Below, piece after piece: positions 3,880 through 37,019 of a DNA stretch of 64,000 nt; the first letter of the stretch is position 1, and each line of letters starts with the position of its first letter. The stretch is taken from contig NZ_DS999546.1 of assembly GCF_000159015.1 (NCBI RefSeq), forward strand, positions 1 through 64,000, written 5' to 3'. The notes under the pieces are model-generated. The model was not told the DNA's origin. It saw nothing but the letters and a program-made list of their open reading frames with translations, and made no database searches. Source of the DNA: Gleimia coleocanis DSM 15436. GTDB lineage: Bacteria > Actinomycetota > Actinomycetes > Actinomycetales > Actinomycetaceae. The position numbers and the translations under genes are program-made.

Positions 3880-5568
3880 ATGATTGAAGAACTGCATATT
3901 CGTAATCTGGGTGTAATAGCGCAGGCAAGTATCGAGTTCAAACCCGGTCTAACAGTACTTACCGGGGAAACCGGTGCAGGTAAAACAATGCTGCTAACTT
4001 CCTTACAACTATTGCTAGGGCAGCGTGCAGATACTGGAAAGATTCGTGCTGGCGAAGCCGAAGCCACCGTTGACGGGGTTTTCACGGTGGATGAAGATTT
4101 GCAAGCCGCCCTCGGGAAAAATGAAATTCAAGAATCCGAGGACGGAATACTCTTAATCGGGCGAAAAATTAGCCCCACCCGCTCTCGCAGCTATTTGGAT
4201 CGCCGTCCCGCCCCGCTTAACCTGCTGACGGACCTGGGACCAAACCTCGCAGTAATCCACGGTCAGGCAGAGCAACTTAACTTAAAGAATCTTGCCTATC
4301 AGCGGGAAATCTTAGATGAATTCGGTTCTAGTGAGCACCAGGAACTCGTCGCACAATACCAACAGGCGTGGAAAATTGCGGTAGCTGCAAAACGCGAAAA
4401 AGACGCCTTCGAAGCAAGCTTGGACGATGCAGAAGCAGAAATCCAAGAACTCACTCCGGTGCTACAAAAAATTCGCAAACTAAACCTTGAACCAGGTGAA
4501 GAAGACAGTCTACAAGCAGAAATAAAACGTATCGAGAATGCGGAAACTCTGCGCGGAGGACTGGCACAAGCTCACGGTTATCTGAGTGGAAACGCAGAAG
4601 AACTTGGGGTAGTGGAAGCAATGACACAAGCCCAGCAAGCCCTGCGCCGGATTGAAAACTATGATCCAGAACTAAATGAAATCAGCCAACGCCTGGCAGA
4701 AACCATCGCCCAAGCCCAAGTCATAAGAGACGACCTGGCATACGCGCTACATGAGATTAACGCCGACCCAGCGAGGTTAGATGCCCTACAGGGACGCCGG
4801 CGCAGTATTAACCAGCTACTCAGAGGCCGCGCAGTAGACATTACAGGTCTCTTAGAATGGGCAGAAACCGCAGAGCAGAAACTAGCCGGGCTAGAAAATA
4901 TTGATGATCGTTTAGCAGAACTCACCCAGAACCTTTTGGATGCCCAAGCTGAAGTTTTAGAAACCGGGGCAGCTCTTTCAGCTTCCCGGGCAGCGGTGGG
5001 TGCTAACTTGGAAAAACTAGTAGACACTGAATTACATGGCCTCGCCATGCCCAATGCACACTTCATTGTCGCGTTAAAAGAACGTATTCGCCCGGGACCG
5101 GATGGATTAGAGGATATCGAGATGCTGCTACAGCCTCACCCCGATTTGCATCCCGCGCCTTTAGCCGCAGGAGCTTCTGGTGGTGAACTCTCTCGTATCA
5201 TGTTGGCGTTAGAAGTGGTTCTTGCTGATCGGCAGGCGGGTGAAAATGCGGGTCTGACCTACATTTTTGATGAGATCGATGCAGGAATCGGCGGTAGTGC
5301 AGCCCGGGAAGTTGGGTATCGTCTGGCGCGGCTCGCGAAGCATCGGCAGGTGTTGGTAGTAACCCACTTAGCACAGGTAGCGGCCTGGGCAGATCAGCAG
5401 TTAGTAATCCATAAAGAGGGCTCTACCACAACTGTGAAACCAGTGGAAAACGGGGAAAGAGTACTTGAATTAGCTAGAATGTTATCAGGAGCCCAGCATT
5501 CAGAAACTGCGCAGGCTCACGCTGAAGAACTTTTAGCTGAAGCACAGCTTCGGAAATCAGAAAGGTAA
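3880..5568 (+). CDS. recN: DNA repair protein RecN
   Basis: This SMC-like ATPase acts in double-strand break repair. The Walker A motif GETGAGKT is at residues 29-36. A central Glu/Ala/Gln-rich coiled coil runs from about 150 to 370. The ABC-type signature SGGELSR and Walker B IFDEIDAGIGG lie near 430-470. The length of 562 is normal. An AGGAAG binding site precedes the ATG. There are only 10 bases after nadK and 6 before steA, so it belongs to one transcription unit. Confidence 0.95.
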   Translation: MIEELHIRNLGVIAQASIEFKPGLTVLTGETGAGKTMLLTSLQLLLGQRADTGKIRAGEAEATVDGVFTVDEDLQAALGKNEIQESEDGILLIGRKISPTRSRSYLDRRPAPLNLLTDLGPNLAVIHGQAEQLNLKNLAYQREILDEFGSSEHQELVAQYQQAWKIAVAAKREKDAFEASLDDAEAEIQELTPVLQKIRKLNLEPGEEDSLQAEIKRIENAETLRGGLAQAHGYLSGNAEELGVVEAMTQAQQALRRIENYDPELNEISQRLAETIAQAQVIRDDLAYALHEINADPARLDALQGRRRSINQLLRGRAVDITGLLEWAETAEQKLAGLENIDDRLAELTQNLLDAQAEVLETGAALSASRAAVGANLEKLVDTELHGLAMPNAHFIVALKERIRPGPDGLEDIEMLLQPHPDLHPAPLAAGASGGELSRIMLALEVVLADRQAGENAGLTYIFDEIDAGIGGSAAREVGYRLARLAKHRQVLVVTHLAQVAAWADQQLVIHKEGSTTTVKPVENGERVLELARMLSGAQHSETAQAHAEELLAEAQLRKSER

Positions 5569-5574: not shown

Positions 5575-6765
5575 GTGTGGAAACGCAAAAGCCCCACGAA
5601 TTCTGGGACTGACAGTGCGGTGGTACGCGTTGATCGGCGCACTAAACGACTAGCGATGCGTCTGGAATCCGGCGAAATCGCAGTTATTAACCACGCTGAT
5701 ATTGATCGTATCGCTGCTGAATCTTTGGTAGCAAAGCAACCTAAAGCGGTGCTTAACGCAGCTAAATCAACTACCGGACGCTATCCAAACCTTGGCCCAG
5801 AAATCCTGCTGGAAGCAGGCATTACTCTTATTGATGATTTGGGTACGGAAATCATGGAGCTGACAGAAGGTCAGTCCATCCAGATTCACGAAAATCAAAT
5901 ATTTGACGGCGATACCCTGATCGCTACCGGTAAACTTCAGACTTTGGAAACCAACGCTGAGGCTATGGAAGCTGCCCGGGTAGGCATGGCTGAAGAAATT
6001 GAAGCATTTGCAGCTAACACCATGGAATACATGGTTAAAGAACGCGATTTGCTGCTAAACAGCGTTGGTATTCCAGAAGTTAAAACAGATTTCCGAGGGC
6101 GGCATATGCTGGTAGTCGTGCGAGGCTACCACTATAAGGAAGATTTGGCTCTGCTGAAACCATATATTCGTGACTATCGCCCAGTGTTGGTAGGCGTAGA
6201 CGGCGGTGCAGATGCCATCATAGAAGCTGGGTTTAAGCCCGATATGATTTTGGGTGATATGGACTCAATTTCTGATGAAGCACTCACCTGTGGGGCAGAA
6301 ATCGTAGTTCATGCTTATCGCAATGGTAATGCTCCCGGTTTGGAACGTGTTAAACGTATTGGTGTAGAACACGTTGTATTCCCCGTTACCGGTACTTCTG
6401 AAGATGCTGCAATGCTACTAGGGGATGCTAAAGGTGCTTCCCTAATCGTTTCTTTAGGAACACACTCAACACTGGTAGAGTTCCTCGATAAAGGACGTGC
6501 AGGTATGTCTTCAACCTTCCTCACTCGTTTAGTAGTGGGTTCAAAACTGGTTGATGCTAAAGGCCTGTCCCAGATTTACCGCACCCGAATTTCTAACTGG
6601 CAACTTTTGATGCTGGCTCTAACCGGTATGCTTGCCATTATCCTAGCGATGGCAATGACACCTGCTGGACAAGCAGTCCTATCTATTATTGGCGTCCACT
6701 TGTGGGACCTGTTCAGTTCATTTAAGGAACTAATCGGTCTGGCCCCGCAAACCCCAACAAAATAA
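5575..6765 (+). CDS. steA: Cytokinetic ring protein SteA
   Basis: The middle of the protein resembles thiamin pyrophosphokinase, with VGVDGGADAIIEAGFKPD and ILGDMDSIS near residues 203-232. The C terminus carries a membrane segment around 343-370 and a short extracytoplasmic tail. This architecture and the following steB-like gene match the corynebacterial SteA-SteB pair, shown to control cell separation and peptidoglycan hydrolase activity; the mycobacterial homologue is Rv1697. A GTG start was chosen because the frame begins only there, with the stop of recN 6 bases upstream. It is probably not a thiamin enzyme, as the membrane anchor and context argue for division. Confidence 0.88.
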   Translation: MWKRKSPTNSGTDSAVVRVDRRTKRLAMRLESGEIAVINHADIDRIAAESLVAKQPKAVLNAAKSTTGRYPNLGPEILLEAGITLIDDLGTEIMELTEGQSIQIHENQIFDGDTLIATGKLQTLETNAEAMEAARVGMAEEIEAFAANTMEYMVKERDLLLNSVGIPEVKTDFRGRHMLVVVRGYHYKEDLALLKPYIRDYRPVLVGVDGGADAIIEAGFKPDMILGDMDSISDEALTCGAEIVVHAYRNGNAPGLERVKRIGVEHVVFPVTGTSEDAAMLLGDAKGASLIVSLGTHSTLVEFLDKGRAGMSSTFLTRLVVGSKLVDAKGLSQIYRTRISNWQLLMLALTGMLAIILAMAMTPAGQAVLSIIGVHLWDLFSSFKELIGLAPQTPTK

Positions 6766-6777: not shown

Positions 6778-7749
6778 ATGGTTGATTTTCGCTATCACCT
6801 GGTTTCACTTATCTCAGTCTTTATCGCCCTCGCTCTAGGCGTGGTGTTGGGTGCAGGACCCCTCCAGGAACCAATCGCTAACGGACTCACCGGACAAGTT
6901 GAAGCCCTGAAGGAAAACCAGGCGCAAAATATCCTGGAAATCGAAAAAGCTCACAGCGACATTGCACAGCGCAATGAATGGATTTTCGACACCGCTCGCG
7001 CAACGCTCGCGGGGAGCCTAAAAGACCGTAAGGTTGCTTTAGTTACTTTCCCAGGTGCACGTCAGACCGATATTGATGATTTACGTTCTCTGATTGAAAC
7101 CGCCGGTGGGGCAATCAACCAGCGGGCCACTTTAACCGCCGACTGGGCAAACAAGAAGCAAACTGAATACCGCATCGAACTTGCAAACACGTTAGCTCCA
7201 GAGCTGACGAATAAACTAGCAGATACTGCTAATAGCGGAGACGTTTTAGGACACGCCCTCGTAGAATCTCTCACCCTGGACACCCCGGAAGCTGTTGCCC
7301 TTCGTGAAAAACTAGCGGGAGCTGAAACCACCCTGGTGGAATTTGATCAGGCCAGCAACGTTACTTCTGACACTATCCTGGTTCTGGGTGCGCCTGCAGA
7401 AGCAGTGGTTAAGCCAGCTGAAAATGCAGTCACCCCACAGGATAAGAAAGCTAAAACTAACGCATCTGCAAAGGGAGCTGATATAGCGGCCCTCACTGGT
7501 TTAGCAAACGCAGTAGTATTGGCTCCAAACTGGGGCGTAGTGCTGGGTGATGGCGAATCAGAAAAAGGTCTTGTAGCAGTACTGCGCAATGCATCCGTGA
7601 AGGTAACCACTGTTGACTCTGCTGGAACCACTATGGGTAACACTTCAGCTATCTTGGCGCTGGTAAATGCAAAGGATAAGAACCTTAAGATCGGCTTCGC
7701 TCCTTCTGCGCAGCAGGTTATTCCAGAACTGCACACCCAGGCGAAATAA
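6778..7749 (+). CDS. steB: SteB / MctB-like membrane-anchored partner of SteA
   Basis: The N terminus MVDFRYHLVSLISVFIALAL is the hallmark of the family named copper transporter MctB in mycobacteria and SteB in corynebacteria. It includes a single membrane helix at about residues 8-27. A coiled coil follows at roughly 35-70. The rest is an extracytoplasmic alpha/beta domain with Ala/Lys-rich linkers. With SteA directly upstream, the cell-separation role is the better inference, and copper handling should be regarded as unproven here. It begins 12 bases after steA with a GGAG binding site and ends 1 base before the next start, so the three genes are co-transcribed. Confidence 0.87.
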   Translation: MVDFRYHLVSLISVFIALALGVVLGAGPLQEPIANGLTGQVEALKENQAQNILEIEKAHSDIAQRNEWIFDTARATLAGSLKDRKVALVTFPGARQTDIDDLRSLIETAGGAINQRATLTADWANKKQTEYRIELANTLAPELTNKLADTANSGDVLGHALVESLTLDTPEAVALREKLAGAETTLVEFDQASNVTSDTILVLGAPAEAVVKPAENAVTPQDKKAKTNASAKGADIAALTGLANAVVLAPNWGVVLGDGESEKGLVAVLRNASVKVTTVDSAGTTMGNTSAILALVNAKDKNLKIGFAPSAQQVIPELHTQAK

Positions 7750-7750: not shown

Positions 7751-8563
7751 ATGAAAACAATCATGCGGGCTCTCGCCGCTACCGCTACAGCAGCGGTAAC
7801 TACCGTATTAGTACAGGAAAAACTCAGATTCCACCCAGCACTGCAACGCACTAATCACGCGGGTAATACAGTAACTTTAGCTACTGGTCCGGCATTATCA
7901 GCTGGACTAGTCGCAGGTAACCTAGTTGCGGGAAACTTCGCTGCCGCCAGCGCGTTAGCTGCCACCGGTACAGCAGGGCTTTACGATGATGTTGACCAAG
8001 GCGAACATGATGGCGAGCAAATCGCTAAAGGGCTGAAAGGCCACTTTAACGCTTTGCGCAACGGATATATCTCAACAGGGGTTTTGAAAGTTGCCGTGAT
8101 TGGCGCCAGCGCTGGAACTTACGCCCTGTATAGGGCTGTAAAAAGTAGCAAGCCGGTGCCTCAACGCGTAGTTGAATGCTTTGTTGATACGGCTCTTATC
8201 GCGGGGTGCGCAAACTTAGGTAATTTATTTGACCTGCGTCCCGGACGTGCTTTGAAAGTTGCCGTCATAGCATCAATCCTTAATGCTGGGGTGGCTGGGG
8301 CTCAAGTGTCTTTAACCCTGGCCACTATGGCAGTTGTTACAGAAGAAGACTTGGCTGGTAAAGCTATGCTCGGGGACGCCGGTGCAAACCCATTGGGCAT
8401 GATGGTGGGAATGCAGAGTGCAAATATTAAGTGTCTACCGGTGAAAACAGCTGTGTGTGGATTGGTCGTTGGACTTAATGTTCTCTCTGAGAAAGTTAGT
8501 TTCACTAAGGTAATCGAAAATACCCCGGTGCTCCATAAGCTGGATATGCTTGGCCGAAACTGA
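7751..8563 (+). CDS. Small MraY/WecA-like membrane protein (glycosyltransferase 4 family relative)
   Basis: The frame is open from 7667, but the ATG at 7751 directly after the steB stop gives 270 residues starting at a membrane helix. About six hydrophobic segments can be seen. Three motifs align with those of MraY in this window: LYDDVDQ with the DD of FADDF, NLGNLFDLRPGRAL with NAVNLTDGLDGLA, and LGDAGANPLG with MGDTGALALGG. The HHH-containing loop of MraY is absent, and a shorter HKLDMLGR end takes its place. The protein is about 90 residues shorter than MraY. The conserved acidic residues suggest a polyprenyl-phosphate sugar-1-phosphate transferase fold, but activity is not assured. It lies between steB and a MurJ-type flippase, which points to an envelope role. 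Confidence 0.7.
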   Translation: MKTIMRALAATATAAVTTVLVQEKLRFHPALQRTNHAGNTVTLATGPALSAGLVAGNLVAGNFAAASALAATGTAGLYDDVDQGEHDGEQIAKGLKGHFNALRNGYISTGVLKVAVIGASAGTYALYRAVKSSKPVPQRVVECFVDTALIAGCANLGNLFDLRPGRALKVAVIASILNAGVAGAQVSLTLATMAVVTEEDLAGKAMLGDAGANPLGMMVGMQSANIKCLPVKTAVCGLVVGLNVLSEKVSFTKVIENTPVLHKLDMLGRN

Positions 8564-8611
8564 CCGTTATTTTCAAACAGCCAAGTTTAATACCAGAAGG
8601 GAACTACACAG

Positions 8612-10117
8612 GTGAAGCGGATTTCTCTAGAAAAATTCACCCTTGGTAGCGTCGGTATCCTTGCAATCACGACGCTCCTATCCAGGCTGGTAGGCTTCGG
8701 TCGGTGGCTCACACAGGGGGCTTTTGTAGGCTCAGGTGAAGTCGCTGGCGCCTATGCGTTGGCAAACCAAGTTCCCAACATTATTGTCGAAATTGTCATT
8801 GGTGGAGCCCTAACGGGCATCATGATTCCGGTTCTAGCTGGCGCGGTAAGTGCAAAGCAAAAACAGGAAGTCAATGCGATTGCCTCTGCTCTGTTAACCT
8901 GGGTAACTCTTATTCTTAGCCTCCTGGCAGTTAGCGTCTTTTTCCTAGCTCCCCATATCGCAGGCTGGTTGCCTATCCCGGCAGGTGCGAATGTTGAGAA
9001 TCAGTTAAACCTAATCACGGTTTTTCTGCAGATTTTTGCCTGGCAGCTACCGCTTTATGGGGTGGCTTTAGTGTTGGGGGGAGTCCTCCAAGCACAAGAG
9101 AAATTCTTCTGGCCAGCTATTACTCCGCTATTTTCTTCGCTGGTGACGATTGCTAGCTTCTGGGCTTATCAGCAGCTGTTAGTTTCCGCTGACGCGACAG
9201 CTGCGGTACAGGGACTAGCATGGGGAACCACCGCGGGGGTTATGGCGCTTTCCATTCCACTGTTTATTCCCGTGTGGTTAAGTGGGGTACGGCTACGACC
9301 TAGCCTGGGGATATCTGCAGAAGTTCGCAAGCAGGCACTGCAACTTGGGGGAGCTGGCGTAGTAACTTTAATAGCACAGCAAGTCAGTGTCTTTGGTGGC
9401 TTATTGCTGATGCGTAAGTTTGGTGATCCAGGTACTGTGGCAATATTCCAGTACGGTCAGGCAATCTATATGTTGCCTTATGCACTTTTAATTTTCCCCG
9501 TAGTAACTGCTTTTTACCCGCGCATGGCTGCCCTGTATGCAGCGGGGGATTCTTTAGAACTTAGTGCGCAAGCAGAACAAACTCTTGAGAAAGTTTTGAA
9601 AGCGGGTGCTTTAGGGCGTGCTGGTTTATTGGCCGCAACCCCGGTTGCTGTAGCAGTGTTCAGCTTTTTAACTCCTGTGGTGGGGATGGGGCTGATGCTT
9701 TATGCCATGGCTTTTTCGCTGACTGGCTATGGTGTCATGTACTTTGGACAACGGGTTTTCTACGCCCTGGGGCAAGTGAGAATGGCAGCTGTAGTTGCAA
9801 TCCAAACTTGGGCTTTGGTTATACTTTTCCAAGTTATTTTTGTAGTTGGTTTGTCTTTCCCGCAGGTTTCGCACTTTACTTCTGTGACTGAGGTTGGTGC
9901 GCAGACTCTTTTAGGCATGGGGTTAGGTTTTGCAGTTGGCTTGGGAATGTCACAGTTTTTGTATATTCGGGTTTTGAGTAAGGTTTTGCCACAAAGTCAA
10001 CTACGTCAGGCTTTATCGCAGACGTGGAAGTTTTCTATGCTGACCTTGTTCGCAGGGATTATTTCAGCGTATTTGCTTAATCAAGTATTGGTATTGTTTG
10101 AAGGGGTTTTACGATGA
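8612..10117 (+). CDS. murJ: MurJ/MviN-type lipid flippase
   Basis: This is a polytopic membrane protein of the MOP superfamily with about 14 hydrophobic segments over 501 residues. The N-terminal TLLSRLVGFGRW and AYALANQVPN are typical of MurJ, which flips lipid II. It lacks the long cytoplasmic pseudokinase and extracellular domains of the mycobacterial MurJ, so it may be the core flippase or a paralogue serving another lipid-linked sugar. The start is GTG with AGAAGGGA upstream. Its last 4 bases overlap the NUDIX gene (ATGA). The adjacent MraY-like gene suggests a paired make-and-flip function, which is inference. Confidence 0.82.
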   Translation: MKRISLEKFTLGSVGILAITTLLSRLVGFGRWLTQGAFVGSGEVAGAYALANQVPNIIVEIVIGGALTGIMIPVLAGAVSAKQKQEVNAIASALLTWVTLILSLLAVSVFFLAPHIAGWLPIPAGANVENQLNLITVFLQIFAWQLPLYGVALVLGGVLQAQEKFFWPAITPLFSSLVTIASFWAYQQLLVSADATAAVQGLAWGTTAGVMALSIPLFIPVWLSGVRLRPSLGISAEVRKQALQLGGAGVVTLIAQQVSVFGGLLLMRKFGDPGTVAIFQYGQAIYMLPYALLIFPVVTAFYPRMAALYAAGDSLELSAQAEQTLEKVLKAGALGRAGLLAATPVAVAVFSFLTPVVGMGLMLYAMAFSLTGYGVMYFGQRVFYALGQVRMAAVVAIQTWALVILFQVIFVVGLSFPQVSHFTSVTEVGAQTLLGMGLGFAVGLGMSQFLYIRVLSKVLPQSQLRQALSQTWKFSMLTLFAGIISAYLLNQVLVLFEGVLR

Positions 10118-10749
10118 TTGCAGATGAGCGAAAGTCATATCCGGTTTTAGAACACCAACGGGTTTGGCATGGGGCAGTTTTTGATATGGATGAGGATTTG
10201 GTGCAGTTAGCGCCGGATTCAGATCCTGTACGGCGTCATTATGTGGCGCATACCGGAGCGGTTGCAGTGGTAGCTCTGCGTGGGGAGGCGGGGAGCGAAG
10301 AAATTGCTTTGGTTGATCAGTACCGGCATCCGGTGCAGGCTAAACTTTGGGAAATTCCTGCGGGTTTGTTGGATATCGCTGGTGAAGACCCACTGTTAGC
10401 GGCGCAGCGAGAGCTTTGGGAAGAAGCGGATTTGCGGGCGGACACTTGGCATGTGTTGGTGGATTATTTTACTTCTCCGGGTGGTTCTACTGAAGAATTG
10501 CGGATTTATTTGGCTCGCGATGTGGTGGAAGTTCCCGAGGGCGAGCGGCATGTACGGTGTGATGAAGAACAAACTATGGCTTTGCGGTGGGTAAATCTTA
10601 ATGAGGCTATAGATGCAGTGCATGCTGGGTTGATTCATAACCCTTCTGCAGTAGTTGGCATTTTGGCTGCGGGTAGTGCGCGGAGTCGAAATTGGGAGTC
10701 GTTGCGCAGTGTTGAGTCTCTTTGGTTTAAATCGCCGCTGGGCCGTTAA
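10114..10749 (+). CDS. NUDIX hydrolase, ADP-ribose pyrophosphatase type
   Basis: The NUDIX box lies at residues 84-107 (AGLLDIAGED, then QRELWEEADL), with one extra residue before the first Glu and Ala in place of the usual Gly after EE; this matches the ADP-ribose pyrophosphatase subgroup. The preceding DQYRHPV and IPAG are also typical of that subgroup. It probably hydrolyses ADP-ribose or a related nucleoside diphosphate sugar to AMP and a sugar phosphate. At 211 residues the length is normal. It is translationally coupled to murJ through an ATGA overlap and is the last gene of the rightward unit. Confidence 0.87.
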   Translation: MIADERKSYPVLEHQRVWHGAVFDMDEDLVQLAPDSDPVRRHYVAHTGAVAVVALRGEAGSEEIALVDQYRHPVQAKLWEIPAGLLDIAGEDPLLAAQRELWEEADLRADTWHVLVDYFTSPGGSTEELRIYLARDVVEVPEGERHVRCDEEQTMALRWVNLNEAIDAVHAGLIHNPSAVVGILAAGSARSRNWESLRSVESLWFKSPLGR

Positions 10750-10783
10750 ACAGGGGAGTAGTCGCTTTCTTGTAGTGAGTAGT

Positions 10784-10827
10784 AAAACTATTGGCGCCTC
10801 GAGTTTCCTTCGAGGCGCCAATAGTTT
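10784..10827. terminator. Bidirectional terminator
   Basis: A long, nearly perfect hairpin with 18-base arms (AAAACTATTGGCGCCTCG and its complement) lies between the rightward NUDIX gene and the leftward small gene. A-rich and T-rich flanks make it functional in both directions. Confidence 0.88.
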
Positions 10828-10834
10828 TATAAGG

Positions 10835-10954
10835 TTAACGTGGGCAAGTGCACCAATCTTCTGGAGCTACGACTGCTTTTACTGAGTCAATGTGTTCACC
10901 GCATCCTTGCCAGGTGGTTTTGTTGCATTTAGGGCAGGTTACTGGGTAGCACAT
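10835..10954 (-). CDS. 39-residue Cys-rich zinc-ribbon-like small protein
   Basis: On the minus strand an ATG with AAAGGA upstream opens a 39-codon frame beginning MCYPVTCPKCNKTTWQGCG and ending WCTCPR. It has six Cys, one CPxC knuckle, one CTC pair and a central GCGEHID. Short proteins beginning MCYPVTC are common in actinobacteria and are annotated only as hypothetical; I recognise the family, not its function. The Cys spacing suggests zinc or another metal. The stop lies just before a shared terminator. Confidence 0.75.
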   Translation of the reverse strand: MCYPVTCPKCNKTTWQGCGEHIDSVKAVVAPEDWCTCPR

Positions 10955-11252
10955 AATGGTCCTTTCCTTTTGAAAGTGCTATACAAACATCTTAGCAGAT
11001 TAGATTTCTGTTATGGATTAGATTGTAGCTTTTGATTTACGGGATGTGATTAGTTTTTTCTATGGATTGCTTTAGAGAATTTATATAGCTAGGCAAAGCG
11101 CCCTCGGAATCCGCTTTTTAAGTAATGAATACGTATCGTAAATCCGTTAAGATTAATACGGTAAGAAAAATCAGCGGGGTGGAAGGCCAAAGCCTCACAA
11201 AACGTGAGCTGACGCTGCCACCACCAAGGTGAAGCAGAGAGGAGCGTGACCA
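10955..11252. promoter_or_regulatory. Divergent regulatory region with structured sufR leader
   Basis: This AT-rich stretch separates the small minus-strand gene from sufR and must hold both promoters, though no strong -35/-10 pair stands out. A CGCCCTCG octamer sits at 11099-11106. Near the sufR start a hairpin CTCAC-AAAAC-GTGAG (11194-11208) is extended by TCAGC (11171-11175) pairing with GCTGA (11208-11212) across a bulge. No known riboswitch class was recognised. SufR binding here is expected from the family, but I could not identify the operator. Confidence 0.4.
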
Positions 11253-24750: not shown

Positions 24751-25785
24751 GTGACGAACCCAGAAAACCACGCTGAAGCAGCGGAGCTAACTCGTGATGA
24801 GATTGCTTCCCTGCACGAACCAGTATTAATCGACGAAGTTCTGGACCTCCTAGCTCCCGCATTTACCGGTGTAGAAATCGCGACGATGATTGACGCGACG
24901 CTGGGAATGGGTGGACACACTGAAGCTGTCATCACAGCTTTCCCAAACGTTCGGGTAATCGGTATTGACCGCGATCCAAACGCAATCCGCTTAGCATCTA
25001 AACGTCTAGAAAGCTTTGGGGAACGATTTAAAGCAGTCCACGCCACCTACGATAGTGTCTATGAAGTAGCCGAAGAAAACGGTTTAGCGGGGAAAATCGA
25101 CGCGGTGCTAATGGACTTAGGGGTTTCTTCCCTGCAGTTAGATGACGATGAGCGTGGCTTCGCATACTCACGTAACACCTATCTGGATATGCGCATGGAT
25201 CCTACTCAGGGAATCACTGCTGCAGAACTCTTAGCTACCGCCTCAGCAGCTGAATTGACTCGCATTCTGCGCACATTCGGAGAAGAAAAATTTGCCTCGC
25301 GAATTGCTCGCAACATTGAAAAGCAGCGCGAAACGAAGCCAATCGAAACTTCTCTGGAACTAACTGAGATCGTACGCGCTTCCATCCCGGCGGCTGCTCG
25401 TCGTCAGGGTGGCAACCCAGCGAAGCGAACTTTCCAAGCTCTGCGAGTAGCAGTGAACGAAGAGCTAGACATTCTAGCTGATGCTGTACCTGCCGCCCTC
25501 GAAAGCCTCAAAGTAGGCGGGCGTTTAGTAGTGGAATCCTACCAATCTTTAGAAGACCGCATCGTTAAAAACGTTATTAAAGACGGTTCGGAAATCAATA
25601 TTCCGCCTGGTCTGCCAGTTATCCCAGACCATCTGAAGCCCAGCCTGGAAAACGTCACTCGCAAAGCGATTCAAGCAACTGAAGAACAAATCGCAGACAA
25701 TCCGAGAGCTGCCTCAGTAAGACTCCGCGCAGCCACCATCATTAGACCATATGAAGCACCAACAAGAATCAGGAGAAAGCGATGA
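24751..25785 (+). CDS. rsmH: 16S rRNA (cytosine(1402)-N4)-methyltransferase
   Basis: RsmH (MraW) N4-methylates C1402 in the decoding centre. Visible motifs are HEPVLIDEVLDLL at the N terminus, the SAM site DATLGMGGHTEA, GIDRDPNAI, DLGVSSLQLDD, and the C-terminal NPAKRTFQALRVAVNEEL. The start is GTG after GGAAGGAGGGG. The length of 344 is normal. The stop overlaps ftsL by 4 bases (ATGA). Confidence 0.96.
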   Translation: MTNPENHAEAAELTRDEIASLHEPVLIDEVLDLLAPAFTGVEIATMIDATLGMGGHTEAVITAFPNVRVIGIDRDPNAIRLASKRLESFGERFKAVHATYDSVYEVAEENGLAGKIDAVLMDLGVSSLQLDDDERGFAYSRNTYLDMRMDPTQGITAAELLATASAAELTRILRTFGEEKFASRIARNIEKQRETKPIETSLELTEIVRASIPAAARRQGGNPAKRTFQALRVAVNEELDILADAVPAALESLKVGGRLVVESYQSLEDRIVKNVIKDGSEINIPPGLPVIPDHLKPSLENVTRKAIQATEEQIADNPRAASVRLRAATIIRPYEAPTRIRRKR

Positions 25786-26174
25786 GCACAGCAACCGCAC
25801 GCGTACGCCCGCAGCAACACGCTCCTAAAGCTACTCCTGAACTAGTACAACTTCGCGTCATTGAAACTGTAAAAGCTGGCACCTCTCCTGCGAAGCTACT
25901 GTTAATCCTGGTAATCCCAGTGATCCTGATAGTTTTAGCGAACCTATACATCAACACGCAGATGGCCCAGACTGCCTACGAACTGCGTGAAAAGCAGGTG
26001 GAACTTATTCGCTTAACTGAAAAGAACGAAGCATTAGAACAGCAGTTGCAGGTTGTTTCATCTCCTGCCACTCTGGAAGAGAATGCAAAACGCCTGGGAA
26101 TGGTACCAGCCCCGGATGCGTTGTTCATCAGTATCAAAAAGAACTCTATCCAGAAGAACTTGAGCGACTTCTAA
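25782..26174 (+). CDS. ftsL: FtsL-like cell division protein
   Basis: This small bitopic protein of 130 residues has a cytoplasmic N terminus of about 35 residues, one membrane helix (LLLILVIPVILIVLANLYI) and a short coiled coil rich in Glu, Leu and Gln to about residue 90. It ends with ENAKRLGMVPAPD, the FtsL/DivIC-family signature. It bridges FtsQ and FtsI/FtsW at the septum. Identity rests on position and architecture, since FtsL sequence is poorly conserved. Confidence 0.87.
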   Translation: MSTATARVRPQQHAPKATPELVQLRVIETVKAGTSPAKLLLILVIPVILIVLANLYINTQMAQTAYELREKQVELIRLTEKNEALEQQLQVVSSPATLEENAKRLGMVPAPDALFISIKKNSIQKNLSDF

Positions 26175-26196
26175 TTCAACTGCTGAAAGGGCTGAA

Positions 26197-27954
26197 ATGG
26201 CACCTCAAACGCTTGTACAGGGTAATCGTTCACTCAAATTCATCTGGGGAGCCTTCGTCACCGCACTGGCACTAATTTCACTATCACTGGTTAACATCCA
26301 GCTTATTCGAGGTTCAGAACTAGCTGCCGAAGCCGCTTCTATACGCACCTTCACGAACACCCTGCACGCCAAGCGCGGTGACATTGTAGATGCTAAAGGA
26401 ACCGTTTTAGCAACTACCGTGCAGACCTACGATATCGCCGTTAACCAGCAGAAAATCAAACTGGCTACCGTCACCATCACCGATGAAAAAGGTGAAGTAG
26501 TTGAAGTTAAAAAAGGTATGTCCGCCGTAGCTGAACACCTAGCTCCACTTCTAGGAAAAAACGAAGCAGAGCTAGGTGGGCAGCTGATTGGCGACTCTAC
26601 CTACCATTACTTAGCACGTAAAGTTCCGGTAGAAACCTGGCGTAAGATTCGCGCCCTCAAAATCTATGGCATTGAATGGGAAGAATCCTTCCAACGCCTT
26701 TATCCATCTAAATCCGTAGCCGCTACCGTAATTGGTTCAATTGATGCTGAAGGAGTAGGTAACTCCGGGATTGAACTCACCCAAGAAGACCTTTTAAAAG
26801 GTAAAGACGGTAGTATCACCAATGAGTACTCTCCGCAGGGTGAAGTACTTCCCGGTGGTAAAAATGAGTACCAGAGCCCACAAAACGGGCAAACCGTACA
26901 CCTTACCATTGACGTTGACTTACAACACCGGATTGAAGAGTACCTTAACGCATTAGCAAAACAGCATAATGCACAAGCCGCTTCCGTAGTTATCACAGAA
27001 GTTAAGACGGGGAATATTTTAGTGTTGGCGGATGCCTACAACCGTCCGATTAATAACCAACCACAAACCTCTAAAGCCATCCAATATGCGGCAGAACCAG
27101 GCTCCGTTGGCAAGGTCTATACCATGGCATCCGGTCTTGAAAAAGGTGTGATTACTCCGCTTACTCCAGTTCCCGTGCCTGACACTCTTACTGTGTCCAA
27201 CGGACAAAGCTTTAAAGATGCTGACCCACACGGCTACCAGATTCTTACCGCTGCTGGGGTGCTAGCAAACTCCTCTAATACCGGTACGATCTTTATCGGA
27301 GAGAAAGTAAAACCAGATGACCGCTGGGATTTGCAGAAGCGCTTAGGCTTAGGGAAACCCACCAATATCGGCCTGCCCGGTGAAACAGCGGGTACTCTAC
27401 CAGCACCCGATAAATGGGACGGTCGCCAAAAATACGTAAATATGTTTGGACAAGCCTACTCGGTGAATCAGCTGCAGCTAGTGAACTCTTTTGCCACTAT
27501 TGGTAACGGTGGAGCTTATCTGCCGCTACGCCTGATTGACGGCTACACGTTACCAGATGGCACCTACCAAAAAGCGCCGCTGGAAAAAGCTGAACGTGCT
27601 CTCAGCCCAGAAGTTTCTACAGAACTTCTTAAAATGATGGAAACCGTTTCCGCATCAGGCTCAGGCAAACACTTCCAAGTACCCGGCTACCGAACTGCCT
27701 TAAAGACAGGTACTGCAGAAGTTATCGAAAACGGCGTTTATGTCGGTAACTCGCTAAATATTGTCGGAGTGGTGCCAACTCAGGATCCGCAGCTGGCAAT
27801 CTCAGTGCATATGTATCGTCCAAGTACTAATAACTACGCTTCCATTCTGTTAGCAGACTTGTTTAAACAGGTTGTGACTGATGCGGTCCGCGCCCGTAAT
27901 ATTCCGGCTTCTGATGTTCCTCCGCAGCCTTATCCTGTGGTAGCTGGCGGATAG
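26197..27954 (+). CDS. ftsI: Septal peptidoglycan transpeptidase FtsI (PBP3)
   Basis: This class B penicillin-binding protein has an N-terminal membrane helix (residues about 18-37), a pedestal domain, and a transpeptidase domain. The active-site motifs are S303-V-G-K306 (in EPGSVGKV), SSN at 359-361 and KTGTAE from 503. There are no PASTA domains. The Ser-Val-Gly-Lys form of the first motif differs from the common Ser-Thr-Phe-Lys, but the catalytic residues are kept. Length is 585. The next gene is murF rather than murE. Confidence 0.95.
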   Translation: MAPQTLVQGNRSLKFIWGAFVTALALISLSLVNIQLIRGSELAAEAASIRTFTNTLHAKRGDIVDAKGTVLATTVQTYDIAVNQQKIKLATVTITDEKGEVVEVKKGMSAVAEHLAPLLGKNEAELGGQLIGDSTYHYLARKVPVETWRKIRALKIYGIEWEESFQRLYPSKSVAATVIGSIDAEGVGNSGIELTQEDLLKGKDGSITNEYSPQGEVLPGGKNEYQSPQNGQTVHLTIDVDLQHRIEEYLNALAKQHNAQAASVVITEVKTGNILVLADAYNRPINNQPQTSKAIQYAAEPGSVGKVYTMASGLEKGVITPLTPVPVPDTLTVSNGQSFKDADPHGYQILTAAGVLANSSNTGTIFIGEKVKPDDRWDLQKRLGLGKPTNIGLPGETAGTLPAPDKWDGRQKYVNMFGQAYSVNQLQLVNSFATIGNGGAYLPLRLIDGYTLPDGTYQKAPLEKAERALSPEVSTELLKMMETVSASGSGKHFQVPGYRTALKTGTAEVIENGVYVGNSLNIVGVVPTQDPQLAISVHMYRPSTNNYASILLADLFKQVVTDAVRARNIPASDVPPQPYPVVAGG

Positions 27955-28112
27955 TAGGATCCTAAAACTGGTACCAGGGAAGTTATGTAGCCAAGTAAAC
28001 AAGAAAAGCGCAGACAGATTCATAAGAAAACGCTTTAAATATGGGAAGATTGTAAAGCATCAAAATGCGAGCAAACTGAGTTTCCCAGCGGAAAAGCAGA
28101 GGAGAACAAAGC
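27955..28112 (+). other. ftsI-murF gap where murE is normally found
   Basis: The 158-base spacer has no reading frame of note and no remnant of a Mur ligase that I could see. It is AT-rich and ends with CAGAGGAG before murF. It probably holds a promoter, but no clear -35/-10 pair was found. Confidence 0.5.
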
Positions 28113-29495
28113 ATGAACTATCAGGCGTCGTGGATTGCTCAAGCAGTTAACGGAAAACTGCTGGGCGCAGACGTAGTGGTCTCAGGAAGTGTGGAAACTG
28201 ATTCCCGAGAATGTGGTTCCGGTTCCCTCTACGTTGCTCGCGTAGGTGAAGCAACTGATGGACATAATTTCATTGACTCCGCTATTGCCAACGGCGCGGT
28301 GTGTGCAATCGTTACAAACCCAAGCATTGGTAATCCAGAACATACGCGTATCCTGGTTGAAGATGCGACCTATGCGTTGGGACTTTTAGCTAAAGTCCAT
28401 ATTGAGCGTTTGCGTGCTACTGGAGATTTGCGAATCGTGGGTATTACCGGTTCGGTTGGCAAAACCACTACTAAGGATTTAACTGCTGGGATTCTGGCAA
28501 AGTTTGCGCCCACCGTCGCTCCTGTAGCATCCTTTAACAACGAAGTCGGAATGCCACTAACTGCCTTGAAAGCTGATGAAAACACCCGTTACCTGGTATT
28601 GGAAATGGGAGCTTCCGGGATCGGGCATTTGGAATACTTGACTGGGCTGGTGAGCCCAGATTTAGGCGTGGAATTATCCGTAGGGCGGGCACACCTGGGC
28701 GGTTTCGGCTCCGTAGCAGGCTTGGCGCGTGCAAAAGCAGAATTAGTCGAGGGCGTTAAAGAAAACGGCTTAGTTATTCTGAACCTTGACGACCCTAATG
28801 TAGCGGCAATGGAAACAGTTGCACATACACCGGTGGTTTATTTCTCCGCCCTCGGGAATGAAAAAGCAGATATCTACGCACGCAACGTAACTCTTGATGA
28901 ATTCTCCCATGCCAGCTTCGAGGCAGTAACCACTGGTGAAGTTATTCCGGTCCACCTGGGGCTGGTAGGAGCCCACCAGGTGAATAATGCTCTGGCAGCA
29001 ATCAGTATCTGCCAAGGATTTGGACTGGAACTGCCTGAAATCGTCGCGGCTCTAAACGGAATGAAAGCAGCCAGCCCCCACCGTATGTCCATCGTTGAAT
29101 CTCGGGGCGCAACTTTCATTGATGACTCTTACAACGCGAACCCAGATTCAATGAAAGCTGGACTTGCAGTACTCGCAAAACAAGGGGAGCATGCTAACCA
29201 GCGAATCGCAGTGCTAGGCGAAATGATGGAGTTGGGAGAAACCTCCGCACAACTACACCAAGAAGTTGGTGAAATGGTAGTAGCTACCCAGGTGGATTTG
29301 CTAATCACTCTTGGAGAAGGCGCTAAAGAAATCGCTGTTCCACTGACGGAAAAAACCACGCACTTCCATGCTGGAAGTGTTGCAGAAGCAGTTAAACTGC
29401 TAGAAGAAAAAGTCGTTGCCGGCGATGTCGTTTTCCTCAAAGGATCAAACGGCTCAGGCGTATGGAAAGTTGCGGACAAGTTCGTAGCTGAGTGA
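28113..29495 (+). CDS. murF: UDP-MurNAc-tripeptide--D-Ala-D-Ala ligase
   Basis: This cytoplasmic ATP-dependent ligase adds D-Ala-D-Ala to the tripeptide precursor. The P-loop is GITGSVGKTTTKDL near residue 111, the metal/ATP region is LEMGASGIGHLEYL near 166, and the C-terminal ligase motif is DDSYNANPDSM near 336. The 460-residue length is typical of MurF. There is no DNPR motif, which MurE would have, so this is not the missing murE. The start has AGAGGAG upstream. Confidence 0.94.
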   Translation: MNYQASWIAQAVNGKLLGADVVVSGSVETDSRECGSGSLYVARVGEATDGHNFIDSAIANGAVCAIVTNPSIGNPEHTRILVEDATYALGLLAKVHIERLRATGDLRIVGITGSVGKTTTKDLTAGILAKFAPTVAPVASFNNEVGMPLTALKADENTRYLVLEMGASGIGHLEYLTGLVSPDLGVELSVGRAHLGGFGSVAGLARAKAELVEGVKENGLVILNLDDPNVAAMETVAHTPVVYFSALGNEKADIYARNVTLDEFSHASFEAVTTGEVIPVHLGLVGAHQVNNALAAISICQGFGLELPEIVAALNGMKAASPHRMSIVESRGATFIDDSYNANPDSMKAGLAVLAKQGEHANQRIAVLGEMMELGETSAQLHQEVGEMVVATQVDLLITLGEGAKEIAVPLTEKTTHFHAGSVAEAVKLLEEKVVAGDVVFLKGSNGSGVWKVADKFVAE

Positions 29496-29534
29496 GCTAT
29501 TTTGTAGGAAAGACAAAATAGGAGAGGAAAGACA

Positions 29535-30620
29535 GTGCTAGCTCTGGTAATCGGAACCGCAGTATCGCTGGTAGTGACCTTATTCGGTACAAAGCTACTA
29601 ATCAGCATCCTGATTAAACGGCAGTACGGGCAGTTCATCCGCCAAGACGGTCCAACTGCACACCACGTTAAACGCGGTACCCCCACCATGGGTGGGATTG
29701 TCATCATCCTCGCTAGTGTAATCGGCTGGCTGGTTGGTCACCTGGCCATCGGCCAACTCCCAGATTACTCTTCAACACTGTTAATGTTCCTATTCGTCGG
29801 TACTGGCGCGGTAGGATTTGCAGACGACTTTATCAAAATCAGCCGGCAGCGTTCGCTGGGATTGAGCCCGCGCGCAAAAATCATCGGACAGCTGGCAGTC
29901 GGCACTATTTTCGCAGTGGCTGCGCTGTCGTTCCCAAATAAGCAGGGACTTACCCCAGCTTCCACAGCGGTATCGATCATTCGTGATACCTCTTTTGATT
30001 TTGCTATTGCAGGCGTCGGTGTGGGCGTAGTTTTATTCGTAATCTGGGCTAACTTTATGGTTTCTGCTTGGTCAAATGCCGTGAATCTCACCGATGGATT
30101 AGACGGTTTAGCTACTGGCGCATCCATGGTTACATTTGCGGGTTACACGTTGGTAAGCCTCTGGCAGTTCTATCAAAGCTGTACCCATCCAGAAGCTTTA
30201 GTAACCATCTGTTATAACGTGCGTGACCCATTTGGTCTGGCGGTAGCTTCTGCCGCTATTGTCGGGGCCTGCTTTGGCTTCCTCTGGTGGAATGCTGCTC
30301 CAGCACAGATTTTCATGGGGGATACCGGCGCGCTGGCTCTCGGTGGTGCCCTGGCAGGTCTGTCCATCCTGACACGTACCGAATTCCTAGGTATTATTAT
30401 TGGCGGCCTGTTCGTAGTCATCCTCATGTCTGACGTAATTCAGATTGGGGTATTCAAACTTACCCGCAAACGTGTATTCCGCATGGCTCCACTGCATCAC
30501 CACTTTGAACTTAAAGGCTGGCAAGAAATCACCATCGTAATCCGCTTTTGGATTATCGCAGGTCTTTTTGCAATCGCAGGCGTCTCACTCTTCTATGGGG
30601 AATGGGTATATAAGCTATGA
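29535..30620 (+). CDS. mraY: Phospho-MurNAc-pentapeptide transferase MraY
   Basis: This ten-helix membrane enzyme makes lipid I from UDP-MurNAc-pentapeptide and undecaprenyl phosphate. Motifs are GTPTMGG near residue 50, the acidic pair in FADDFIKI near 98, NLTDGLDGLATG near 183, MGDTGALALGG near 263, and MAPLHHHFELKGW near 317. The start is GTG with GAGAGGAAAG upstream. It overlaps murD by 4 bases. Confidence 0.97.
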   Translation: MLALVIGTAVSLVVTLFGTKLLISILIKRQYGQFIRQDGPTAHHVKRGTPTMGGIVIILASVIGWLVGHLAIGQLPDYSSTLLMFLFVGTGAVGFADDFIKISRQRSLGLSPRAKIIGQLAVGTIFAVAALSFPNKQGLTPASTAVSIIRDTSFDFAIAGVGVGVVLFVIWANFMVSAWSNAVNLTDGLDGLATGASMVTFAGYTLVSLWQFYQSCTHPEALVTICYNVRDPFGLAVASAAIVGACFGFLWWNAAPAQIFMGDTGALALGGALAGLSILTRTEFLGIIIGGLFVVILMSDVIQIGVFKLTRKRVFRMAPLHHHFELKGWQEITIVIRFWIIAGLFAIAGVSLFYGEWVYKL

Positions 30621-32101
30621 GCATCACAACTCCACTAACAGCACATGACTGGACTAATTTAACCTGCGGGGTCTTTGGCTTAGGCAAAAGTGGGTTAGCC
30701 GCAGTAGAAGCCCTTTTAGAATTTGGCGCCGACGTTAAAGTCTATGACTCACGCTCAGCAGAGCAACTCGCTAATGTAGTCAGTGAACTAGGTGAATCTG
30801 TTTCCTGGCACTTGGAAAACAGCGGTTTAGATAATCTAGCTAGCCTTGATTTAGCCGTCGTTTCCCCCGGAATCCCTCCACATTCGGCTAGTTTCAGCGG
30901 TTTAACCGCAGCTAATGTGCCGGTCTGGAGTGAAGTTGAACTAGCCTGGCAAATCCAGCACACTCTGGGGAAAGATATTAAATGGCTTGCCATTACTGGC
31001 ACTAACGGCAAAACCACTACCGTTGGACTAGTTGGCTCCATCTTGGAAGCAGCAGGCGCAAAATACGCTGTGGTTGGAAACGTTGGGGAACCAATCGTTA
31101 CCACCGTCCTCAAAGCAGACGTTGAAGTTCTTGCCGTGGAACTCTCAAGCTTCCAGCTTGAAACCACGCATACGCTTTCCCCCTTGGCAGCGGTTTGTCT
31201 AAATGTTGATGCCGACCACCTGGACTGGCATGGCAGCGTTGAAAACTACCGGGATGCGAAAGCCCGCATCTACGAAAACACCCAAGTTGGTTGTGTCTAC
31301 GATGTCACTGACCGAACTGTTGAAAATATGGTTGCAGGAGCAGAAGTTATCGAGGGCGCTCGCGCAATCGGTTACACTTTAGGTTCCCCAGCTCCATCAC
31401 AAATCGGACTTGTTGAAAAGCTACTGGTAGACCGAGCTTTCGTGGAAAACCGCCACCATCAGGCGGAAGCAGTCGCGGAAATCAGCGACATTTTTGGCTT
31501 CGCCTCTGAACATCCATCCATCGCCCTCGTGAAAGATACTTTAGCTGCCATCGCACTTACGCGCGCCTACGGGGTAAGTGGGGAAGCAGTAGCAGCCGGT
31601 CTACGGAACTTCAAATCCGCTAAGCACCGTCGTGCGGTTATTGGGAAAACGGCCGACGTCGTATGGATTGACGACTCCAAAGCCACCAACACCCACGCGG
31701 CCAAAGCCTCCCTGGCAGGTTTCCCACCCCAAAGCGTTGTTTGGATTGCCGGGGGCGATACTAAAGGACAGGAACTGCATAGCCTGGTCGCAGATATTAA
31801 AGACTGTCTGCGAGGCGTCGTTGTAATCGGTGCCGACCCAACCCCAGTTGTCGAAGCCCTACAAACAAATGCCGCAGAGATTCCATACGTAGTAGTAGAC
31901 GGTCACGAAGACATGATGTTCTCTGTCGTGAATGAAGCAGTTGCACTATCTCTACCAGGTAACACCGTGGTACTCGCACCCGCCTGTGCATCCTGGGACC
32001 AGTTCGAAAATTACGGTCAGCGTGGGGATCTTTTCGCTGAAGCCGTCGGACGCCTAGATGAGGCCTGGCAACAACAGTACGGGCAGGGAGTAGGAAAGTG
32101 A
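30617..32101 (+). CDS. murD: UDP-MurNAc-L-Ala--D-Glu ligase
   Basis: It adds D-Glu to UDP-MurNAc-L-Ala. The N-terminal Rossmann part (GVFGLGKSGLAAVEAL) binds the uracil nucleotide, the ATP loop is AITGTNGKTTTVGL near residue 124, followed by ELSSFQLETT and NVDADHLDWH, and the ligase motif is DDSKATNTHA near 353. At 494 residues it is slightly longer than E. coli MurD. It overlaps its neighbours on both sides by 4 bases. Confidence 0.96.
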   Translation: MSITTPLTAHDWTNLTCGVFGLGKSGLAAVEALLEFGADVKVYDSRSAEQLANVVSELGESVSWHLENSGLDNLASLDLAVVSPGIPPHSASFSGLTAANVPVWSEVELAWQIQHTLGKDIKWLAITGTNGKTTTVGLVGSILEAAGAKYAVVGNVGEPIVTTVLKADVEVLAVELSSFQLETTHTLSPLAAVCLNVDADHLDWHGSVENYRDAKARIYENTQVGCVYDVTDRTVENMVAGAEVIEGARAIGYTLGSPAPSQIGLVEKLLVDRAFVENRHHQAEAVAEISDIFGFASEHPSIALVKDTLAAIALTRAYGVSGEAVAAGLRNFKSAKHRRAVIGKTADVVWIDDSKATNTHAAKASLAGFPPQSVVWIAGGDTKGQELHSLVADIKDCLRGVVVIGADPTPVVEALQTNAAEIPYVVVDGHEDMMFSVVNEAVALSLPGNTVVLAPACASWDQFENYGQRGDLFAEAVGRLDEAWQQQYGQGVGK

Positions 32102-33333
32102 CTTTCCTAGAAACCGCACAGAGGAAACTTAAACAGCTGGCGAAGCGGGTTCCGAAAATCAAACTTGATTTAGACCCAAACCCCTCAGCTGTCACTATCT
32201 ACTACATTATTCTGATAGCTTCCTTTGTGCTTATCGCTGCGGGTCTGATTATGGTATTTTCAGCCTCCACGATTCGCGCTATCAGCGCAGGTGAAAGTCC
32301 TTACGCAGCCTATCTAAAGAACCTCGGGATTATGATTATCGGGGTACTGCTGATGATTTTTGTTTCCCGTATTTCGGTGACTTGGCTTAAAAAAAGTGCT
32401 GTACTGTTACTGGGAATAAGTCTAACGTTGCAGTCTCTAATCTTTACAGGATTAGCAGTTTCTGAAGGTGGCAACACTAACTGGGTGAAAATTCCAGGCG
32501 TTCCCTTCCTCTTTCAGCCATCTGAAACTTTGAAACTTACCCTGGCGGTCTACCTGGCCTGGGCATTTTCCACCCAGTTGAAAAATCGGCGTGATTTAAA
32601 GGCCCTGGGCTTGTGGATCGGCTTACCGGTAGTGGCATCCCTAGCCATGATCATGTGGGGGTCTGACTTAGGCACTACCATGATTATTGCTACAATGGTG
32701 TTGGGAATGCTGATGGTTGCCGGTATCCCATCAAAATACTACGTTTATACGGGGGCAACAGCAGTTTTCCTCGTAACGTTGGCAGTTGCATCTAAACCAT
32801 CGCGATTGGAACGTATCATCTCAGTTATTCCGGGTCAGGGACCAGAGCGAAATCTGGCTGCCCCGGAACAGATTGACCACGCCCTTTGGGCACTTGGTAG
32901 CGGTGGTTTAAGTGGCGTTGGTCCAGGTGCTTCCAAAGAAAAATGGAACTACTTGGCAGCAGCTCACACGGACTTCATATTTGCTGTACTTGGGGAAGAA
33001 TTAGGATTCTTCGGGGCAATTAGTATTATTTTAGCTTTCGCTTGCCTGCTCTATGGAATCTACCGTTTAGCTCTTTCCCAGACGACTGTGTTTGAACGTC
33101 TGGTTGTAACCGGTATGTTTTCGTGGATTGGTGCCCAGACTTTGGTTAATCTTGGTGCGGTTGTAAATCTAACTCCTATTATTGGTGTGCCATTACCACT
33201 GATTTCAACTGGTGGTACAGCTTTCTTAGCGACTACTTTTTGCTTAGGGGTAGTCCTTAGCATTGCCCGACAGAACGTGGGTGATGGACATAGTTTCGGT
33301 ATCCGTGGAATCTTCCGTAGCTTCCTAAGTTAG
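32098..33333 (+). CDS. ftsW: Septal peptidoglycan polymerase FtsW
   Basis: This SEDS-family glycosyltransferase polymerises lipid II with FtsI as partner. A cytoplasmic N terminus of about 35 residues is followed by ten membrane segments. Conserved residues include NWVKIPG and FQPSETLKL near 130-145, AHTDFIFAVLGEELGF with the catalytic Asp region near 285, and the C-terminal GVPLPLISTGGTA. The GTG start overlaps the murD stop (GTGA). Confidence 0.95.
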   Translation: MTFLETAQRKLKQLAKRVPKIKLDLDPNPSAVTIYYIILIASFVLIAAGLIMVFSASTIRAISAGESPYAAYLKNLGIMIIGVLLMIFVSRISVTWLKKSAVLLLGISLTLQSLIFTGLAVSEGGNTNWVKIPGVPFLFQPSETLKLTLAVYLAWAFSTQLKNRRDLKALGLWIGLPVVASLAMIMWGSDLGTTMIIATMVLGMLMVAGIPSKYYVYTGATAVFLVTLAVASKPSRLERIISVIPGQGPERNLAAPEQIDHALWALGSGGLSGVGPGASKEKWNYLAAAHTDFIFAVLGEELGFFGAISIILAFACLLYGIYRLALSQTTVFERLVVTGMFSWIGAQTLVNLGAVVNLTPIIGVPLPLISTGGTAFLATTFCLGVVLSIARQNVGDGHSFGIRGIFRSFLS

Positions 33334-33423
33334 TTAAAGAAGCCAGGCTAGCTAAAGAAACCCATTGAGAAGCGGTAGACTTAAAAGGTTAAGGTACTAA
33401 TCACCTTTCAGAAAGAGGAATAC

Positions 33424-34563: not shown

Positions 34564-34565
34564 TC

Positions 34566-35933: not shown

Positions 35934-35948
35934 TAGAAAGCTGATTAG

Positions 35949-37019
35949 TTGAAGAAGCCGAATCTTCCACGGAATCATTCTCGTAGTGAGGGGGGTTCAC
36001 CGGCAGGTGAAGCCCCGCGTGGTGTGCCTAGGCACCCTCGGGAAAATGAAGAGGAAGTGGTTTCTGTTTGTCGTCCGCAACCGAGCCGTAGAGTGGCTAT
36101 GTTGTCGGCACGAGAGAGCGCTCTAAGTGTGGGGTTAGGACGTAAAACCACGGCCACAGGTGAAGTGACGCTTGTAGAGGAGCTTAAGCTTTCTCAGCCA
36201 GTAGGTAGTAAGCCTAGCGTGGCTTCAAAGTTGCGTGGCTACGTGGCTGCCGCAACGGCTGCTAGCACTTTTAAGTCGAAGAATCATCAGAGTTCTGAGC
36301 TGGAGGAACGACGCTTGGAAGTGCGTCGGGCTAAGTTGCGTAGTTATTCCTGGTTGGGGATTAGCGTAGTTGCTGGTCTGCTGGTTGTTGGCGGACTAGT
36401 TTGGGCGGTTTTCTTTTCTACGTTATTTGCGTTGAATGCCCAGCAGATTACGGTTGTGAAGGGGAGTGAGAAGGTTTCTCCTGCCCAGGTACAGACTATC
36501 TTACGGAAGTGGGATGGGGTTCCTCTGCCGCGTGTATCTACGGGGAATATGGAAGCTGAGTTGGCAAGTATTCCGCTGGTGAAATCTGCTGAGGTTAGTC
36601 GCAGTTGGCCGAACGGTTTAGAGATTTCTTTGGATTTGCGTGTGCCGGTTTTTTCAGTTGAGGAAGCGGGACAGTGGCAGATTTATGATACCGAGGGCGT
36701 GCAGATTGAAACTTCTCCGGTGATTGCTGAGGGGACTTTACGAGCTGAACTGACTGCTACTGACCCGCAGAAGCGGGTGCAGGCTTTGCAACTGATGGCA
36801 CAGGTGCGGTCGCAGTTGGATGTGGAGCTGTTGGAGGAAGTAGCGGTTTTGCGTTCTGAGGGCTCGCTGTTGGAAATAGTGTTGAATTCTGGAGCGGTAG
36901 TTAAGTGGGGAGATGCTAGCGATACCCCATTTAAGTTGAAGGTTTTGAAGGTTTTACTGGGCCAGGTTCCCGCTAAACTCTATGATGTTTCGGTGCCGGC
37001 GAAGCCAGTAACTGCCTAA
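35949..37019 (+). CDS. ftsQ: Cell division protein FtsQ
   Basis: This bitopic divisome protein has a long basic and acidic cytoplasmic N terminus of about 135 residues, a membrane helix (about 136-162) and an extracytoplasmic POTRA domain beginning LNAQQITVVKGS with the later SRSWPNGLEISL. The only start that keeps the whole frame is TTG after GAAAG; an internal ATG at residue 51 is possible. Length is 356, with the extra length in the cytoplasmic tail, as is common in actinobacteria. Confidence 0.88.
   Translation: MKKPNLPRNHSRSEGGSPAGEAPRGVPRHPRENEEEVVSVCRPQPSRRVAMLSARESALSVGLGRKTTATGEVTLVEELKLSQPVGSKPSVASKLRGYVAAATAASTFKSKNHQSSELEERRLEVRRAKLRSYSWLGISVVAGLLVVGGLVWAVFFSTLFALNAQQITVVKGSEKVSPAQVQTILRKWDGVPLPRVSTGNMEAELASIPLVKSAEVSRSWPNGLEISLDLRVPVFSVEEAGQWQIYDTEGVQIETSPVIAEGTLRAELTATDPQKRVQALQLMAQVRSQLDVELLEEVAVLRSEGSLLEIVLNSGAVVKWGDASDTPFKLKVLKVLLGQVPAKLYDVSVPAKPVTA

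Follow-up and report, generated by a model that had tools for sequence, protein, structure and literature searches.

The 64,000-nucleotide stretch of Gleimia coleocanis DNA analysed here (the window) encodes a 270-aa membrane protein of the MraY/WecA fold, the mini-PNPT. The protein belongs to a known superfamily but to a new subfamily within it, one that is not curated, comes with a dedicated flippase and is closely tied to SteA in evolution. The family is conserved across Actinomycetota and is captured by no Pfam or NCBIfam model. It is probable that the mini-PNPT is an active, divergent polyprenyl-phosphate sugar-1-phosphate transferase with its own flippase, MurJ2, and that SteA is functionally coupled to their pathway. 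Most SteA-bearing actinobacteria carry this third PNPT together with MurJ2; the two are missing in Mycobacterium and track three SteA residues. In many actinobacterial orders, the enzyme family named here probably starts a lipid-linked glycan at the division site or close to it.

The mini-PNPT gene and its fold

The mini-PNPT gene (7751..8563, + strand) lies in an operon, with its ATG start 1 nt past the steB stop and its end 48 nt short of murJ2 (8612..10117, +), which encodes a 501-aa divergent MurJ-family flippase (Pfam MurJ, E = 1.2e-40). The genes upstream are packed equally tightly. They are recN (3880..5568, +), a conserved neighbour with RecN found in 74 of 80 loci; steA (5575..6765, +), encoding a cytokinetic-ring protein with a TPK-like domain (NF040608, E = 6.6e-145); and steB of the MctB family (6778..7749, +; PF11382, E = 1.1e-54). 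The SteA and SteB proteins that the earlier note had named as neighbours were recovered over the NCBIfam and Pfam cut-offs, respectively. Downstream, the gene of a conserved NUDIX hydrolase (10114..10749, +; Pfam NUDIX, E = 2.1e-16) shares a 4-nt overlap with murJ2. A promoter and terminator scan gave no signal above chance.

The window mini-PNPT had no Pfam or NCBIfam match of weight, so its naming needed comparison. AlphaFold2, supplied with an alignment of 69 orthologues, returned a model with a mean pLDDT of 94.7 and a pTM of 0.91, made up of nine long helices and three short ones. MraY has 10 transmembrane helices and the model has fewer, as the earlier note had read from the sequence. 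The model showed the MraY-type multi-helix membrane fold of the PNPT superfamily: the top 13 Foldseek matches in the PDB were all MraY or human DPAGT1 (probability 0.99-1.00), and no other fold exceeded 8% probability among the matches listed.

The family profile aligned with 29 actinobacterial MraY and WecA rows at E = 4e-7 (hhalign), and with only two PNPTs at 5.6% probability. The best single-family profile match was of the WecA/TagO type (E = 1.7e-6), and HMMER against PDB chains matched E. coli MraY (E = 1.2e-4). PF00953 matched 12 of 27 family members (best 2.2e-5), left the window protein unmatched and gave orthologues 20-26 bits in whole-genome scans, below its curated cut-off of 27 bits. 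We class the mini-PNPT as a distant PNPT homologue: it shares the fold and the catalytic set but lies outside the curated Pfam model.

The mini-PNPT resembles MraY in structure (8g01, 8cxr, 4j72; Foldseek probability 1.00, TM about 0.56-0.59 by query length) and in its DD pair, the Lys after DD, NxxNxxD and GDxG. However, it has 270 residues against about 360, is 15% identical, lacks the HHH loop, whose His motif is important in MraY, and has the second Asp of DGLDG replaced. Nor is it the sole MraY of the genome, which sets it further apart from MraY proper: the full MraY announced by the earlier note was confirmed outside the module, as the canonical enzyme of the dcw cluster (29535..30620, +; PF00953, E = 1.1e-31, over the cut-off). 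With the WecA/TagO-type PNPTs it shares the catalytic core, but at 270 aa it is shorter and has no loop-E His motif, and a separate WecA-like enzyme, the third PNPT of the genome, is encoded on another contig (C31:286821). It has the PNPT fold of human DPAGT1 (GPT; 6bw6, 9znn, probability 1.00), but is bacterial, much shorter and different in its loops. Full-length PNPTs over the Pfam cut-off accompanied a mini-PNPT in 15 of 15 genomes tested. In the dcw cluster (window 24751-38402), no murE was present between ftsI and murF among the listed open reading frames.

Catalytic residues and the proposed reaction

The earlier note had recognised DD, NxxNxxD-type and GDxGA motifs in the 270-residue protein. 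They are D79-D80, then N155, N158 and D161, and G208-D209-x-G211-A212, all invariant in the 69 orthologues. Highly conserved residues of B. subtilis MraY are D98, D99, K116, N171, D174, D231, H289 and H290 (PMC5039524). In MraY, WecA and combined alignments, the first six corresponded to D79, D80, K113, N158, D161 and D209 of the mini-PNPT, with D79-D80 paired with DD, K113 with the Lys of RAKxxGQ, N158/D161 with NxxD and D209 with the Mg aspartate. These six positions are invariant in the 69 orthologues, fall among 35 invariant columns of 270 (hypergeometric p = 3e-6) and are kept in every deep-branching homologue checked, including degenerate Streptomyces-like copies.

Counterparts of H289/H290 were missing, and the HHH motif of loop E (PxHHHxExxG) was absent both from the window protein, as the earlier note had seen, and from the conserved columns of the 69 orthologues. 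The second Asp of DGLDG is P164 in the mini-PNPT. Novel features invariant in the 69 orthologues were G94xxGH98, R166, K169 and a C-terminal E247..SF251...I255. In place of the MraY/WecA sugar-recognition loop, the family has a K/R-G-x-x-G-H...G....G..K segment of its own, in which H98 is invariant. The degenerate Streptomyces-like PNPTs (L144:7798-8556 and L145:7319-8107) adjoin recN and GT4 at loci where SteA, SteB and MurJ2 are lost. In them His replaces N155 and N213 and the C-terminal motif is absent, but they still carry DD, K113, N158, D161 and D209.

The earlier note had offered as an alternative that the protein is a regulatory pseudoenzyme tied to SteAB-controlled cell separation. 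In this reading the mini-PNPT would bind a lipid or nucleotide without catalysis and adjust cell separation through SteAB. Such a role would agree with the reduced size, the absence of loop E, the replaced second Asp of DGLDG, and the strict linkage to SteA/SteB. However, the six catalytic-equivalent residues are invariant across the whole phylum, MurJs of a separate clade accompany the mini-PNPT and are lost with it, glycosyltransferases are also among its neighbours, and Streptomyces-like genomes keep the PNPT beside GT4 after the loss of SteAB. We disfavour the pseudoenzyme because the catalytic residues are invariant, and consider it quite unlikely.

An active enzyme of PNPT fold could also carry out another reaction, using a polyprenyl or other lipid phosphate and a non-sugar phosphate donor, or running in reverse or in recycling, with MurJ2 moving a carrier intermediate. 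The replaced sugar-recognition loop with its invariant H98, the invariant R166/K169 and C-terminal E..SF...I motif, and an alkaline-phosphatase-like protein in the cluster at 15 of the 80 named loci are points in favour of this. It is nevertheless unlikely in our judgement, as glycosyltransferases are the commonest extra neighbours and, to our knowledge, every characterised PNPT uses a nucleotide sugar.

We prefer a sugar-1-phosphate transferase. The DD pair and D209 would hold Mg2+, and the mini-PNPT would take a sugar-1-phosphate from a donor nucleotide sugar, which is probably UDP-linked, and attach it to polyprenyl phosphate at the inner membrane face. The product may be extended by a neighbouring GT4 or GT2 enzyme, where present, and MurJ2, as a dedicated MurJ-type flippase, would then turn it outward. 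The proposal of the earlier note that a distinct lipid-linked sugar may be made and flipped gains support from the complete and invariant catalytic set, the separate MurJ clade, the glycosyltransferases present alongside in most lineages, and the loss of PNPT and MurJ2 together.

MurJ2 and the distribution of the gene block

The flippase had been described as a core MurJ without the mycobacterial pseudokinase. The 501-aa protein at 8612-10117 indeed has no such extension, but the label "core" was wrong, because a search of the genome found, on another contig, the canonical MurJ, which carries a long C-terminal extension; the neighbour of the mini-PNPT is a second, divergent MurJ. MurJ2 belongs to the MurJ/MOP family like the MurJ lipid II flippase, with a Pfam MurJ score of 140 bits against a cut-off of 27.4 bits. 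Against the NCBIfam equivalog TIGR01695, however, it reached 144.5 bits, under the cut-off of 235.55, and in a tree of 45 MurJs the cluster-linked and canonical proteins were split by one branch with 99/98 support. Residue E59 of MurJ2 sits where E. coli MurJ has Arg, and is E or D in 22 of 22 sequences; we rejected it as a MurJ2 diagnostic because canonical actinobacterial MurJs are also without that Arg. In one deep-branching genome (locus L138, G181:C1:830000-846000), a single MurJ was found; it is encoded within the SteAB-PNPT cluster but on the other strand (about 9045-11066, +), and it groups with the canonical MurJs on a long branch.

Orthologues of the mini-PNPT were present in 41 of 59 relatives and at no fewer than 570 genome loci. 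The usual order is recN-steA-steB-miniPNPT-murJ2-(GT4)-pyrG; SteA, PNPT and MurJ occurred together in 76 of the 80 named loci, and GT4 followed in 63. Deep lineages add further glycosyltransferases to the block, with GT2, GT4, PMT_2 and alkaline-phosphatase-like genes between SteB and PNPT. Several of them keep the PNPT with SteA but without MurJ2 and can thus do without the flippase. GT4 is absent next to the mini-PNPT and murJ2 genes in the subgroup to which the window belongs. The Phycicoccus elongatus locus (L063) reads PNPT-MurJ2-GT4-pyrG, and recN, steA and steB are not upstream of it. A 720-780-aa alkaline-phosphatase-like membrane protein travels with the cluster, sometimes in tandem (L146:6650-8953, L136:9095-11422, L113:13507-17933); it is recognised by neither Pfam nor NCBIfam models and had no PDB match of weight.

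Among 149 genomes of the phylum, PNPT was found in 67, SteA in 69 and both in 64 (Fisher p = 4e-32, uncorrected for kinship). Apart from one fragment, the exceptions were of two kinds: Mycobacteriaceae-like genomes that carry SteA but no PNPT, and two Streptomyces-like ones that lack SteAB and have a degenerate PNPT next to GT4. These group names are our assignments from genome size and gene content.

SteA residues and loss of the block

The window SteA scored 482.6 bits with NF040608 (cut-off 150 bits), and TPK_catalytic matched its residues 203-238. Its GDMDS motif is intact (D228, D230, S231), as are K306 and G330, and by sequence this motif is the predicted GDxDS nucleotide/metal motif of TPK-type enzymes.

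None of the 19 block-less loci had PNPT or MurJ2 between SteB and PyrG or NUDIX; the order there was recN-steA-steB-(pyrG)-NUDIX, and GT4 was also gone in all but one. Every PNPT-bearing genome among the 59 relatives had a SteA of 456-527 bits, whereas the PNPT-lacking relatives had either no SteA over the cut-off or a divergent one at 283-395 bits, bar two broken loci. The two (G047 and G051) had a normal SteA and no PNPT; we rejected them as exceptions because their contigs end inside or just after steB, which marks assembly gaps. In Mycobacteriales, SteA scored 513-545 bits with the block and 413-500 bits without it.

SteA Ser231, Lys306 and Gly330 were present in 36-37 of 37 block-bearing sequences (S231 in 37/37) and in none of the 19 block-less ones. 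In a larger SteA set, the corresponding counts were 55-56 of 56 (S231 in 56/56) and 0 of 26. The tie to SteAB that the earlier note had raised is thus well supported, as absence of the block always goes with changes at the same three positions of SteA. On the RecN tree, which served as the reference for gain and loss, the block state changed 8 times, at least 4 of them on supported branches. Four of four supported independent pairs agreed for Ser231 and Gly330, and Lys306 agreed nearly always. With four well-supported contrasts (8 counting weak branches) the sign test gave p = 0.125; four pairs are unable to reach significance alone, and the covariation is therefore strong pattern evidence and not proof. 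We do not claim that only the pocket is lost in block-less SteAs: those from Actinomycetales losses diverge broadly, with 59% of near-invariant columns kept, so the claim is limited to the three positions lost in all 26. R183 and D230 were rejected as signature residues, being kept by some block-less SteAs.

The association could be one of synteny only, with PNPT and MurJ2 forming an independent surface-glycan pathway in a stable recN-pyrG region beside steAB. The recN, pyrG, NUDIX and xerD genes of this region are unrelated housekeeping genes, and the P. elongatus locus carries its PNPT-MurJ2-GT4 genes with no SteA nearby, both of which are in keeping with this explanation. However, the presence of PNPT and SteA coincides genome-wide, and the changes at fixed SteA positions upon block loss point to more than mere proximity; we consider synteny alone very improbable.

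In our preferred reading, SteA would be a working partner of the mini-PNPT and MurJ2, either as a pathway enzyme or as a sensor of a nucleotide or sugar intermediate. Its TPK-like domain keeps an intact GDxDS only in block-bearing organisms, and through the partnership the pathway may be coupled to SteB and to cleavage of the septal wall. That SteA tracks the block suggests that an undescribed lipid-linked sugar pathway was once its partner or is still sensed by it.

The window SteA and SteB are orthologous to the SteAB of Corynebacterium and Mycobacterium and occupy the same recN-pyrG locus (PMC6705760, PMC12977500). Unlike the window, the Mycobacterium loci examined have no PNPT-MurJ2 block, and unlike the window SteA, the solved SteAs of the two genera have lost S231, K306 and G330. 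Both are of the block-less type, with GDPDQIS in M. tuberculosis (9HMY) and GNPTGIG in C. glutamicum (9HMZ). This suggests that work on SteA to date has been confined to lineages from which the partner pathway had gone. SteA has been shown to have a conserved pocket and to bind UDP and GDP; CgSteA was stabilised by both and not by ADP or triphosphates, and its ligand was described as unknown (PMC12977500). The PNPT and second flippase adjoining steAB are candidate chemistry for this pocket; an adjoining PNPT or MurJ2 is nowhere mentioned in the open-access papers found. We tentatively suggest, as a possibility, that SteA was ancestrally an enzyme or obligate sensor of a mini-PNPT-GT4/GT2-MurJ2 glycan pathway, and that the SteAB switch of Mycobacterium and Corynebacterium is a remnant after loss of the pathway and decay of the TPK-type site. 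If so, the nucleotide or lipid intermediate of the pathway would supply the missing cytoplasmic signal that permits cleavage of septal peptidoglycan. Clostridial SteAB loci have been reported near spo0A (PMC12977500).
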